From: Brucella daejeonensis
GTDB taxonomy: Bacteria; Pseudomonadota; Alphaproteobacteria; Rhizobiales; Rhizobiaceae
NCBI RefSeq assembly: GCF_014199265.1
Contig: NZ_JACIJG010000003.1
Location: forward strand, 124,001-188,000
Direction of reading: 5' to 3'
DNA length: 64,000 nt
A program made the translations under genes and the position numbers. Shown one piece after another: positions 60,380 through 64,000 of this stretch. Each line of letters starts with the position of its first letter. Positions within the stretch are counted from its first letter, which is position 1. The notes beneath the pieces were generated by a model that saw only the letters and a list, made by a program, of their open reading frames with translations, ran no database searches and was not told where the DNA came from.

Positions 60380-60484
60380 TAGAGCATTTCCAGCAAAAGT
60401 GCGAAGCGGTTTTGCGTGGGATAATGCGAAAAAACAAATAGTTGGAGCGGTTCCAACGATTCAGTCAAAACAGGAACCGCTCTA
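60380..60484. repeat. 105-bp bipartite repeat (copy C), overlapping the xseA stop codon
   Basis: It has the same ends and layout as the 45.3-kb copy, with four differences in 105 bp. The second stem is perfect here (GAGCGGTTCC/GGAACCGCTC), where the other copy has one G-U pair. The final CTA of the element is the xseA stop codon TAG on the minus strand, so the gene ends inside the repeat. Confidence 0.88.
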
Positions 60485-62071
60485 GAACAGCGACCCCTGA
60501 TTGCCGGGACCGGGAGATGAAGTTTTTTTCGTTTGCTGAGGCTTCGCCGGATCGCCCCCGCCAGGCCCTTTCGTCACCACAGCGATGTCGCCATCCCTGA
60601 AGCGGACAGACAGCATATCGCCGGTCGATACGGACGCGGCCTGCTTTACCGGCTTGCCGTCTGTATCGAACACGACGGCAAAACCGCGATCCAGTACACT
60701 TTCATAAGAAAGCGTGCGCATGAGGCGCTCCAGTTCCTGCCCCCCGCGCCTGGCCCGTTCGATCGTCAAGCGGACGGCCTGATCGCGGCGGCGGTCCAGT
60801 TGCTCAATGGCGACGCTGGTGAGTTTCACCCGTCGCAATATGGGATCGGCCGATAGCCGATTGGCGCGATGAGCCAACGCTGTACGGCGTTCGCGCAGGA
60901 ATGTTTCCAGCGCACGCGGCAGACGCTGGCCAAGATTGGACACGCCGCGTTGCATTTCCGAAAAGCGCCGTTGCAGAAGCCGCGACGATAATTGCCGCGC
61001 ATGACCCTCGAAATGAACACGTTTCTTTTGTGTGTTGACCAACAGGGCGCGTGTAAGACGCGATGCCGCCTCATCGAATCGCCGACGCGGTAAAGCCAGC
61101 AACTGATCGGCTGATGGAAGCGCGCGTGAAGCCGAGCGGTGAGCCTGCCGCTTCAGGTCGATAAAACGCGACATGGCAGAAGAAAGCCGGGCAGACTGTG
61201 CGGCAAGCGCGGCCATGAGATCGGCTTTCACCGGCACGGCCATTTCCGCGGCACCCGTGGGCGTCGGCGCCCGGACATCCGCGGCGAAGTCGATCAATGT
61301 CCAGTCGGTTTCGTGACCGACCGCCGAAATGACCGGTATATGCGAAGCCGCAACCGCACGAACGACGATTTCGTCGTTGAAACCCCAGAGATCTTCCAGA
61401 CTGCCGCCGCCTCTGGCCACGACCAGCACATCAGGACGCGGGATCGGACCGTTTTCAGGCAAAGCGTTGAACCCATCGACCGCCGCCGCGACTTCAGCTC
61501 CGCTCGTCTCCCCCTGAACCCTCACCGGCCAGACGATGACATGGATCGGAAAACGATCCGCAATGCGGTGAATGATGTCGCGAATGACAGCACCGGTTGG
61601 AGACGTGACCACACCGATCACGCGCGGCATAAAAGGGAGGAGTTGCTTGACTGCCGGATCGAACAGACCTTCCGACGCCAGCCGTCTCTTGCGCTCTTCC
61701 AGAAGCGCCATCAACGCACCAGTCCCCGCAGGCTCCATCTGCTCGATGACGATCTGGTACTTCGACGAGCCGGGATAGGTCGTGAGCTTGCCAGTGGCGA
61801 TGACTTCCATGCCCTCTTCGGGGCGGAAGCGCAGACGGCCCATCGAGCCGCGCCAGATCACGGCCTCAAGGCGTGCGCGGTCGTCTTTCAACGCAAAATA
61901 AGCGTGACCCGAGGAATGCGGCCCGCGATAGCCGGAAATTTCTCCCCGCACGCGCACATGACCGAATGTATCCTCGACCGTGCGCTTCAAAGCGCCGGAA
62001 ATCTCGGACACACTGTATTCGGCCACATTCGACGATACGCCGATAAAATTCGAATCGGAACCCATGCTCAT
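60482..62071 (-). CDS. xseA: Exodeoxyribonuclease VII large subunit
   Basis: XseA with XseB degrades single-stranded DNA to short oligonucleotides. The 529-residue protein has the N-terminal OB fold ([21 protein letters not shown] region) and the catalytic domain with [30 protein letters not shown] and [13 protein letters not shown]. The C-terminal 35 residues are Pro/Gly/Lys-rich. Its stop codon lies within the 105-bp repeat. xseB is not in the window. Confidence 0.95.
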
Positions 62072-62133
62072 CCCATCATAGGCAACCAGCGGACACGGCC
62101 GGTCAAGAAGCCGTGCGACGAATTACGCTCTGT

Positions 62134-63090
62134 TTACCAGCCCGGCAGCAGTTCGTTGGCTCGCACCCTCCTGGTACGAACCGCCGGAAACGGTGAAATT
62201 TCCACTGAAGCCATGCTTCCCGGCTGCGGCGACGATATATTGTCGAGGCTTTCGATAATATGCTGCGCAAGCGCATCCACCACGGCGTTCTGCTTCGCGT
62301 GGCCCCGCATGATGCCAATGCCGAATTCCGGCAGCGCCCCGAAACCGTCCGCTTCGCCAAGCACCCGCATACCGGGGCGCAGCGCACATTCGGGCAGCAC
62401 CGAAACGGCCAGTCCCGAAAGCACCGCCGCAGCCAGGACCGTTGCAGACCAGCTGGTGATGATGATGCGATAATCCCGCCGCGCCGATTCCAGCACATCG
62501 ATGGCGGCATGGCGCCAGATGCAGGTCGGGCGGCCGACAGCCAGCGGCAATACCGCCTCTTCATGCACCGCATGATTGGCGGATGCGACCCACAAAAGCG
62601 GCTCCGTGCGCACCACCTCCGAGCGGCGCTTGTCGTCACACTGCGTCACGAGCGCAATATCCAGCGTACCCTTGCGGATCATCTCATCCAGATTGACCGT
62701 CGGCTCACAGATCACCGAGAGTTCGACGCGCGGATTGGAGCGGGCGAACCGCGCCATGATTTCGGGCAGGAACCGGTCGGCATAATCGTCCGGCGTGCCG
62801 ATGCGCACATGACCTTCCAGTTGGGTATCGTCGAACGCCGCAATTGTCTCGCCATTGAGCTGCATCATACGACGCGCGTAGAGCAGGAGCCGATCACCAT
62901 CTTCCGTAAGACGGTTTGACCGCCCGTCGCGTTCGAATAACGGCTTGCCGATCCGTTCCTCCAGCCTGCGCATCTGCATCGAGACCGCCGACTGGGTTTT
63001 GAACACCGCATCGGCTGCGCGCGTAAAACTGCCGGTATCGGCGATAGCGATGAAAGTCTGCAACTGATCGAGATCCAGAGGCGCACTCAT
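62134..63090 (-). CDS. LysR-family regulator of the LsrB/VtlR type
   Basis: A 318-residue LysR regulator. The helix-turn-helix is FIAIADTGSFTRAADAVFK and the following QMRRLEERIG. The ligand domain contains VRIGTPDDYADRFLPEIM, and Cys residues in SVICEP, TQCDD, PTCIW and PECALRP. As I recall them, LsrB (Sinorhizobium) and VtlR (Brucella) look very similar; VtlR activates small DUF1127 genes and a small RNA. The next gene, divergent, encodes a DUF1127 protein. Identity by resemblance only. Confidence 0.88.
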   Translation of the reverse strand: MSAPLDLDQLQTFIAIADTGSFTRAADAVFKTQSAVSMQMRRLEERIGKPLFERDGRSNRLTEDGDRLLLYARRMMQLNGETIAAFDDTQLEGHVRIGTPDDYADRFLPEIMARFARSNPRVELSVICEPTVNLDEMIRKGTLDIALVTQCDDKRRSEVVRTEPLLWVASANHAVHEEAVLPLAVGRPTCIWRHAAIDVLESARRDYRIIITSWSATVLAAAVLSGLAVSVLPECALRPGMRVLGEADGFGALPEFGIGIMRGHAKQNAVVDALAQHIIESLDNISSPQPGSMASVEISPFPAVRTRRVRANELLPGW

Positions 63091-63120
63091 TAGGGTCTAA
63101 ACTCAATTAGGTTTCGGGCG
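63090..63120. promoter_or_regulatory. LysR-type dyad and shared 17-mer in the DUF1127 spacer
   Basis: TTAGGGTCTAA, a TTAG-N3-CTAA dyad, overlaps the LysR start codon. CAATTAGGTTTCGGGCG follows at 63104-63120 and recurs with one change at 42797-42813 before the 88-residue gene. Both could be regulator sites. Binding unproven. Confidence 0.5.
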
Positions 63121-63283
63121 ATGCAACTCATCATTATTTTTGAAGAATGACATTAAAAACATTCGCTGGAATAATCAATTCGATTGTTGGATAAAGCTGC
63201 CATCGTAAAGGAAAAGGAGCCGCGCAAGCGAATGACCCTGACGATGAGGACCCCATAGACCCGCTGATTAAAGGAGAGCGGAC

Positions 63284-63583
63284 ATGACAGCGACCAGCAA
63301 GTTCACGACGACACACTTACCGGCAAAGAGCGGACAGGTTTCCGGCTTCGCGCAAATGGTGAAGGCTGTAATCACGTCGGCATTGCGTCGCTGGGCCCTC
63401 TCCGGCGGCAGGCGACAGGTGATGCACCTCAGCGAATTTGACGACCACCTGTTGCGCGACATCGGACTGCGCCGCGAGGACGTCTACACGGCGGTCCATT
63501 ATCGCGGCCATGAGGACCCGACGCGCGTACTTGGCGAACTCGCGGATATGCGCCTGCGGATCAAGACCACGCGCAATATCTGA
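63284..63583 (+). CDS. DUF1127 domain protein
   Basis: A 99-residue basic protein whose C-terminal half holds the DUF1127 signature LSEFDDHLLRDIGLRREDV. AAGGAGAG precedes the ATG. Small DUF1127 proteins in alphaproteobacteria take part in stress responses, phosphate and carbon adaptation and RNA turnover, and in Brucella are activated by VtlR. The 3' region folds into a candidate regulatory RNA. Confidence 0.93.
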   Translation: MTATSKFTTTHLPAKSGQVSGFAQMVKAVITSALRRWALSGGRRQVMHLSEFDDHLLRDIGLRREDVYTAVHYRGHEDPTRVLGELADMRLRIKTTRNI

Positions 63584-63639
63584 TGAAGAAACCATCGCAG
63601 TTCCGGGAGGATCAGACCTTTCCGGGACCCGCCGACTGA

Positions 63640-63730
63640 ACATCTGGCAGGCGCCACCTTCACATGCCGAGCCCCCTCTCGGCCAGCCTGCCCCTTGCCC
63701 GGCCGCTCCTCCGCTGGCCGGGCTTTTTTT
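63640..63730 (+). ncRNA. Candidate 3'UTR small RNA, cuckoo/CcsR-like
   Basis: After the DUF1127 stop codon come two hairpins with C-rich loops. The first has an outer stem GGCAGGC/GCCTGCC (63646-63652 with 63686-63692) and an inner stem GCCGAG/CTCGGC with loop CCCCCT. The second has stem GCCCGGCC/GGCCGGGC (63697-63704 with 63715-63722) with loop GCTCCTCCGCT and TTTTTTT after it, which is also the terminator. Cuckoo/CcsR RNAs, known in alphaproteobacteria downstream of DUF1127 genes, have such anti-Shine-Dalgarno loops. 5' end unknown. Confidence 0.65.
63697..63730 (+). terminator. Intrinsic terminator of the DUF1127 transcript
   Basis: A perfect 8-bp GC stem (GCCCGGCC/GGCCGGGC) followed by seven T. 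Its loop carries CTCCTCC. Confidence 0.92.
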
Positions 63731-63944
63731 AAGCGGCGCCGGGAAACATGAATTCCAGCGTCGAAACATCCTTTCACACTGAAAAATCGGCAAGTGCTGG
63801 ATAACTGAAATCGCTGCAATTTTTTTCGACGAAAGGGGTTGCGTTCGCGGTTTGAGTTCGCTAGATGGATGCCACCGCGAACGAGCGTTATGCTTCTGTC
63901 GCATTTGCAAGCCGACAAAAATGAAGGCATTTGCAAATCCCTGC

Positions 63945-64000
63945 TGGGGGATAGTTTAAGGGTAGAACAGCGGACTCTGACTCCGTTAGTCTTGGTTCGA
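63945..64000 (+). tRNA. tRNA-Gln (CUG), partial at window end
   Basis: Starts TGGGGGATAG, has a D arm with AGTTTAAGGGTAGAACA, and an anticodon stem-loop GCGGA-CTCTGAC-TCCGT, whose loop gives anticodon CUG (Gln). The T arm begins GGTTCGA and is cut off by the window end. The 5' U1 is typical of tRNA-Gln. Confidence 0.92.

Follow-up and report, generated by a model that had tools for sequence, protein, structure and literature searches.

Cuckoo/ar14/CcsR RNAs are processed by RNase E from a DUF1127 transcript into stable small RNAs (sRNAs). RNAs of the ar14 family have several hairpins, each of which carries the motif CCUCCUCCC where it is unpaired (PMC10746234), and at the CIN1 locus a cuckoo/ar14/CcsR RNA is linked to a DUF1127 gene (PMC10253847); the definition of cuckoo RNAs used here follows the descriptions in such later papers. 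The other closely comparable system is that of AbcR1/AbcR2 (ar15). The Brucella AbcR seeds are CUCCCA (M1) and GUUCCC (M2) (PMC5461406), and AbcR of Sinorhizobium meliloti uses CUCCUCCC and UUCCCCUC (aSD2) (PMC8844928). In Agrobacterium, AbcR is reported to lie beside vtlR/trxB, and the order of vtlR and trxB is said to be well conserved in Alphaproteobacteria (PMC7486931).

The window, the whole 64,000-nt stretch of DNA analysed here, is part of contig C3 of the 4.64-Mb genome of Brucella daejeonensis. The two stem-loops that the initial annotation had described 3′ of the DUF1127 stop codon, with the second as the terminator, were both found at 63640-63730, and the compact unit of protein, RNA and divergent LysR gene proposed there was borne out and recurs widely. 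The features of the locus are listed in Table 1. The spacer between the DUF1127 gene and the element carries a strong extra hairpin, GUUCCGGGAGG...CCUUUCCGGGAC, at 63600-63629, and this spacer was different in the other same-genus loci read. The genome contains six other DUF1127 loci. A second divergent pair, consisting of a LysR gene and a weak DUF1127 gene, is present in the same genome (L007 / L012, G000:C5:4193-5387); its LysR is 38% identical to that of the window, its DUF1127 protein scored 21.7 bits, below the cut-off, and the RNA element had no match there at E <= 0.001.

Table 1. Features of the LysR-DUF1127-RNA locus and of the two ar14 control loci in the same genome
Feature	Position	Strand	Remarks
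xseA	60482-62071	-	Right end of window; adjoins window LysR
LysR-type regulator, 318 aa, LrhA-like	62134..63090	-	PF03466/PF00126; divergent from the DUF1127-RNA unit
Conserved intergenic box ATTAAAAACATTCGCTGGAATAATCAAT	63152..63179	+	Candidate LysR operator overlapping the DUF1127-RNA promoter
DUF1127 protein, 99 aa (long type)	63284..63583	+	Above Pfam gathering score of PF06568 (34.6 bits, cut-off 23.3); RBS AAAGGAG
Conserved structured RNA element (proposed sRNA)	63640..63730	+	Intrinsic terminator at end; fold, conservation, covariation, models R1/R2
Outer stem, 7 bp, GGCAGGC/GCCUGCC	63646-63652 with 63686-63692	+	Encloses hairpin 1 and linker
Unpaired C-rich linker GCCACCUUCACAU, 13 nt	63653..63665	+	Candidate anti-Shine-Dalgarno seed 1
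Hairpin 1, GCCGAG-CCCCCU-CUCGGC, loop CCCCCU	63666..63683	+	Candidate seed 2
Terminator hairpin GCCCGGCC-GCUCCUCCGCU-GGCCGGGC-U7, loop GCUCCUCCGCU (holds UCCUCC)	63697..63730	+	Stem kept in relatives
tRNA gene, truncated by window end	63945-64000		Downstream of RNA element
ar14/cuckoo array L001	G000:C4:287657-287777	-	CTCCTCCTCCC loops visible, behind short DUF1127 gene
ar14/cuckoo array L002	G000:C2:195719-195840	-	CTCCTCCTCCC loops visible, behind short DUF1127 gene

The fold of the 92-nt stretch 63640-63731 had a minimum free energy of -43.8 kcal/mol. Its 200 dinucleotide-shuffled versions averaged -28.7 (sd 2.9), which gives a z of -5.25, and none of them folded as well. The outer stem, which had been missed in the initial annotation, encloses hairpin 1 and the unpaired CCACCUUCAC segment. 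The predicted probability of being unpaired was 0.92 or more for three C-rich stretches: the linker, the loop of hairpin 1 (CCCCCU) and UCCUCC in the terminator loop. The automatic terminator scan, which covers loops of 3-8 only, listed no terminator for the element.

The element was present in all 30 same-genus loci read, with its GGCRGGC stem beginning at a distance of 12-181 nt, counted from the stop codon's first base. Mean pairwise identity was 0.861 for the element, 0.71 for the coding sequence, 0.32 for the spacer (18 loci with at least 5 nt) and 0.31 for the next 100 nt, as determined for 29 of the 30 loci; L039, in which the DUF1127 match is split in two, was left out. As the element is present at every genus locus read and is 86% identical between flanks of 31-32% identity, it is not a product of chance. 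The element with both stem-loops was thus confirmed as a real, conserved, structured RNA in the DUF1127 3′UTR. Among the 25 distinct genus sequences the linker was almost invariant, and TCTGGCRGGCGCCACCTTCACA was almost invariant in the genus at both paired and unpaired positions (alignment A1 omits five sequences identical to others, L017, L023, L024, L026 and L027). The terminator loop was UCCUCC in one group of the genus, CACCUCU in another, and CACCAAAC or CUUUUG elsewhere; in relatives it was GCACCUCUGCUG, CACCAAAC, CUUU or GCGA, with the stem kept, and CUCCUCC was present in 14 of 47 elements. Because its sequence changes in this way among relatives, the terminator loop is the least conserved of the loops. 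The emphasis that had been placed on the UCCUCC loop was therefore not supported; the better conserved C-rich parts are the linker and the loop of hairpin 1.

A covariance model, R1, was built from 25 genus sequences, and a second model, R2, was made later. R1 matched the RNA in 33 of 35 genus genomes with E below 1e-16, a count in which 30 matches are the loci that made the model (25 distinct sequences) and only those in G174, G176 and G180 are new. The window DUF1127 protein was matched at E <= 1e-6 in 32 of the 35 genomes. The RNA had no match in G158 (3.3 Mb, 99% complete) or G170 (72% complete), and the LysR gene likewise had none in these two at E <= 1e-60; in G158, neither LysR, DUF1127 nor RNA was found at the thresholds used.

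Identity as a cuckoo/CcsR-like RNA had been suggested for the element, and the covariance search called for in this connection was run. Neither of the Rfam models ar14 (RF02344) and CcsR1 (RF02791) matched anywhere in 61000-64000 up to E 5, and the hallmark CCUCCUCCC occurred in 0 of 47 elements. As a positive control, ar14 scored 93.7 bits at L001 and 87.9 bits at L002 (cut-off 58.8), each after another DUF1127 gene, of the short type, in this genome, and gave six matches genome-wide, five of them over the cut-off and none on C3; the CcsR1 model reached only 38.1 bits at these control loci, below its cut-off of 65.3. Conversely, R1 had no match at E <= 0.001 at any of the six other DUF1127 loci. 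The window element resembles the cuckoo/ar14 (NfeR1)/CcsR RNAs in its location in a DUF1127 3′UTR, which is shared by its relatives, and in its unpaired C-rich parts, which could pair with ribosome-binding sites. It differs in having neither CCUCCUCCC nor a series of equal hairpins, in the nesting of its hairpin within an outer stem, and in its link to an LrhA-like LysR. Membership in the cuckoo/ar14/CcsR family was rejected on the lack of a model match, the missing hallmark and the ability of ar14 to find that family elsewhere in the genome. Rfam anti-hemB, a sub-threshold candidate (15.3 bits against a cut-off of 49.5; 22 bits in L102), was also rejected; its matches look like a shared outline of a terminator plus a C-rich loop. 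Near the ar14 array of L002, a glycine riboswitch (RF00504, 60.8 bits) was found at L002:2105-2189 (+), close to a GcvT-like frame recognized by eye.

Among solved structures, the nearest to the window LysR was LrhA (PDB, 146 bits), and LrhA was also the best NCBIfam model, with 187 bits, well below the model cut-off of 530. The probable activator had been taken for the LsrB/VtlR type. The sole trxB over the cut-off in the genome is located at C8:110572-111489, with an adjacent LysR gene at C8:111547-111960, and the VtlR motif quoted in PMC12595884 did not occur between LysR and DUF1127, even with 3 mismatches allowed. As the trxB-linked candidate lies on C8, the window LysR adjoins xseA and the intergenic region lacks the VtlR motif at this tolerance, an identification of the window LysR as VtlR/LsrB was rejected. 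The locus shares with the VtlR/LsrB-controlled DUF1127 genes of Brucella and Agrobacterium the link between a LysR protein and DUF1127 expression, and differs from them in that the regulator gene is another LysR, with another conserved box. At L002, CATTGCAGCTATGCA upstream of the DUF1127 gene is 2 mismatches from the VtlR motif of the same source; when the locus was shuffled 200 times, 27 of the shuffles contained one or more matches with 3 or fewer mismatches.

The intergenic box is a 28-mer with the consensus ATTARAAACATTCGYTNGANNNATCAAT (the ATTARAAACATTCGTTGGA box, for short). It was found within 3 mismatches of the consensus at 30/30 genus loci, and matched the 4.64-Mb genome only once, exactly, and nowhere else up to 3 mismatches; the reversed control gave 0. 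Its position overlaps a sigma-70-like site at 63147-63175, weak evidence by itself (1 found, 0.4 expected). In the named-locus scan with a LysR alignment, the best 80 of 587 confirmed loci were inspected. The alignment, A4, consists of the window protein and those of 15 of the 22 loci outside the genus described below, and leaves out L055, L057, L060 and L063 (incomplete matches) as well as L053, L056 and L068. Next to LysR, the consensus occurred with 3 or fewer mismatches at 70 of these best 80 loci (65 exact), and an equal stretch inside LysR, used as a control, had 10 or more mismatches in all 80. All 64 of the best 80 loci with an RNA match at E <= 0.01 had the box; among the 16 without one, six had it, so that none of the 10 loci lacking the box had an RNA match at this threshold. 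The box is a candidate operator and promoter of the LysR/DUF1127-RNA unit, and the divergent LrhA-like LysR is the probable regulator.

At E <= 0.01, R1 matched 107 of 394 genomes of the Rhizobiaceae, in 44 of 109 genera, with 8 same-genus genomes included; E-values of R1 and R2 are rough, and the weak R1 matches in this family count may include terminator-only ones. No R1 match was found in the other 287 of the 394. The best 30 loci of the 107 matched genomes included 22 outside the genus, and among these best loci a DUF1127-like frame, recognized by eye, ended 0-133 nt before the modelled element in 22/22, a divergent ortholog of the window LysR, 64-89% identical, was present in 22/22, and tblastn with the window DUF1127 protein gave a match in 21/22, with 25-43% identity.

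R2 found the RNA at E <= 0.01 in 64 of the named loci (best 80 of 587), of which four share the core with an R2 training row. In 63 of the 80 the RNA had the expected orientation and lay no more than 1 kb from LysR, including L150, whose first domain is unlike the family. In the remaining locus, L151, LysR and DUF1127 are about 1.3 kb apart, and the RNA is found beside DUF1127. A DUF1127-like frame was detected by a loose pattern in 74 of the best 80 loci and on inspection in four more. In L110 (Tianweitania populi), which has no RNA match, a stop codon interrupts the DUF1127 frame beside a conserved LysR. Loci with the RNA came from Mesorhizobium, Aminobacter, Phyllobacterium, Rhizobium, Agrobacterium and S. 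meliloti, among others; the Aureimonas, Roseibium and Microvirga loci among the best 80 of 587 had no match at E <= 0.01. In an order-wide draw of 397 genomes, R2 matched 19 at E <= 0.001. Only 12 of the 19 belong to the family, own and training genomes included, and the seven outside it (E 1.7e-4 to 8.7e-4) were not counted as members. The unit LysR <- box -> DUF1127-RNA thus recurs in Rhizobiaceae.

A variant form was seen in Rhizobium-type elements, which occur in Rhizobium and Sinorhizobium and have an unpaired UCCCC directly 5′ of a GCAGGG/CCCUGC hairpin, followed by the terminator, and no inner hairpin. UCCCCGC stood directly 5′ of the stem in 28/28 Rhizobium-type sequences, hand-picked from 36. 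In L156 and L157 (Rhizobium), with sub-threshold matches of E about 0.25, a Rhizobium-type element was still found at the right place. A nearly invariant GCCAAU loop motif, not C-rich, occurred in 23 of 26 distinct Rhizobium-type sequences (for example, L133:1803-1877 (-), S. meliloti strain 4H41). As the shape of the Rhizobium type is much different, family-wide homology relies on the position, the box and the terminator no less than on the sequence.

Covariation was observed in both forms. In a structure-blind alignment, six of the seven outer-stem pairs were standard in 29/29 sequences and the outermost in 22/29. Within the genus, the outer stem showed G-C to G-U and A-U to G-U changes, and hairpin 1 showed compensatory G-C to A-U pairs. 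In A3 (structure-blind MAFFT, 29 diverse members; A2 and A3 take in 7 of the 30 genus sequences), 93.5% of the domain 1 cells were paired. Double-change cells numbered 23, compared with 10.0 after shuffling (0 of 500 shuffles as high), and four pairs had double changes, compared with 2.4 (14 of 500 as high). With the partner slid by +3 as a control, the covariation score was 0.106 against the observed 0.120, and only 41% of cells paired. In A6, the structure-blind MAFFT alignment of 28 hand-picked Rhizobium-type sequences out of 36 (without L115, L120, L123, L136, L143, L150, L154 and L159), 99.4% of cells were paired and three pairs had double changes, compared with 1.0 after shuffling and a value that 0 of 500 shuffles reached; further pair types were no more numerous than in the shuffles (424 of 500).

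Candidate seeds were counted in 60 distinct elements with an inner hairpin; of 111 sequences, 21 matched neither pattern and are not in the counts, and 15 of these came from the genus itself and have a CUCGG arm and a linker without ACUCCC. ACUCCC was present in 33 of the 60 linkers, compared with 1.5 expected by linker shuffling, and UCCCC was present in the loop of 40, compared with 8.3 expected, with shuffles that keep base composition only and ignore relatedness. These motifs resemble the M1 and M2 seeds of AbcR and its aSD2, UUCCCCUC. CUCCCA occurred in 25 of the 60 elements, GUUCCC in 19, and both in 16; Mesorhizobium-type relatives have unpaired CACUCCC and GUUCCCC. The window copy contains neither CUCCCA nor GUUCCC and its linker lacks ACUCCC; it has CCACCUUCAC and CCCCCU, and its seeds are drifted. 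The RNA is like AbcR1/AbcR2 (ar15) in having two C-rich unpaired seeds and a LysR gene nearby, and some relatives of the window RNA carry CUCCCA together with GUUCCC, like the M1/M2 seeds of AbcR. It differs from AbcR in its fold, its coupling to DUF1127, its drifted seeds and its location, since AbcR is reported beside vtlR/trxB in Agrobacterium, whereas the window lies on C3 and the trxB-LysR pair on C8. No Rfam ar15 match was listed for 61000-64000 up to E 5, a result without a positive control. The computed pairing of the C-rich segments with the ribosome-binding site of their own DUF1127 gene was no stronger than that with shuffled versions of the site (29 loci, mean z -0.6 to -0.8, L039 again being left out), and autoregulation through such pairing was rejected.

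The RNA was also found without the protein. G176 (L114, the same sequence) keeps a LysR 88% identical to that of the window, the box and the RNA (E 1.3e-17), whose start lies about 60 nt past the box; no DUF1127 frame was found at the locus, and the genome has no match to the window DUF1127 protein at E <= 1e-6. This single genome suggests that the RNA is maintained in its own right, at least in this case.

On this evidence we regard it as reasonably probable that the element represents an sRNA family of Rhizobiaceae that is uncatalogued, has C-rich seeds like those of AbcR, acts on ribosome-binding sites and is co-expressed with DUF1127 under a linked LysR. The RNA would form the 3′ end of the DUF1127 mRNA or, where DUF1127 is missing, a short transcript of its own, and the divergent LrhA-like LysR would probably set expression through the single conserved box between both genes. 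In the predicted fold, the outer stem would hold the C-rich linker and the C-rich hairpin loop, with the terminator after it. By analogy with AbcR and NfeR1, the most likely pairing partners of the C-rich stretches would be purine-rich ribosome-binding regions of target mRNAs, which would then be translated less.

A cis-acting 3′UTR element that protects or controls the DUF1127 mRNA, without a role in trans, is an unlikely alternative. The element follows a DUF1127-like frame in all loci read except one and stays with DUF1127 in L151, where LysR is about 1.3 kb away; that one exception, G176/L114, which keeps LysR, box and RNA without the frame, speaks against it. The element may in a variant of this explanation be a landing site of the DUF1127 protein itself, in an autoregulatory manner, and the Rhodobacter DUF1127 protein CcaF1 is reported to bind RNA and to help process RNAs of its own transcript (PMC10253847). 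Against a purely cis-acting element, conservation within the genus is as high in the unpaired segments as in the stems, beyond what a decay barrier needs, and the DUF1127 proteins outside the genus are only 25-43% identical to that of the window, compared with 64-89% for LysR (among the best 30 loci of the 107 matched genomes). A sponge or decoy that titrates a protein or another sRNA through the C-rich segments, instead of pairing with mRNAs, appears improbable. It would account for the retention of segments that are not C-runs and are unneeded for anti-Shine-Dalgarno pairing, namely UUCACA in the genus and GCCAAU in 23/26 Rhizobium-type sequences, but the C-rich seeds vary in sequence and yet stay complementary to purine-rich ribosome-binding sites. 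We know of no protein or sRNA partner that would match.

That the element is a divergent member of the cuckoo/ar14/CcsR family, as initially annotated, is very improbable: the same place behind a DUF1127 gene, the C-rich unpaired parts and the UCCUCC of the window terminator loop speak for it, and the silence of ar14 and CcsR1 up to E 5 beside the ar14 matches elsewhere in the genome, the absence of CCUCCUCCC from all 47 elements, the nested architecture and the failure of R1 at the six other DUF1127 loci speak against it. Least probable of all is a strong terminator accompanied by a chance hairpin and nothing more. The second hairpin is indeed a terminator and G+C-rich DNA easily forms hairpins, but the folding z of -5.25, the 86% identity against 31-32% in the flanks, the covariation and a syntenic location that is constant in 63 of the best 80 of 587 named loci point the other way, and the conservation of domain 1 refutes this reading.

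Returning to the preferred interpretation, a regulatory RNA acting on ribosome-binding sites, a more far-reaching version can be put forward tentatively, although we rather doubt it in full: LysR, DUF1127 and RNA would form a self-contained post-transcriptional switch of Rhizobiaceae, in which LysR binds only one box in the genome, at its own divergent promoter, and acts only via DUF1127 and the RNA, the RNA is the more essential of the two, and DUF1127 genes are coupled to two unrelated families of C-rich regulatory RNAs.

No published description of the RNA was found among the titles and abstract openings listed in the open-licence literature (supplementary sRNA tables of RNA-seq studies lay outside this scope), and six sequence fragments of the box and the RNA had no occurrence in the open-licence texts searched; the S. 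meliloti or Agrobacterium copy may be present, unnamed, in a published RNA-seq sRNA list. The cuckoo/CcsR story suggested that DUF1127 proteins travel with one RNA family. The RNA described here is not matched by Rfam 15, and the same protein family, DUF1127, is coupled in it to a different RNA. If the RNA acts as proposed, the coupling of DUF1127 with a C-rich RNA arose more than once, which, if true, points to a shared job of DUF1127 proteins in handling such RNAs. It would also make this family a third rhizobial group of Shine-Dalgarno-blocking RNAs beside AbcR and NfeR1, and the copy in S. meliloti makes the proposal directly testable.
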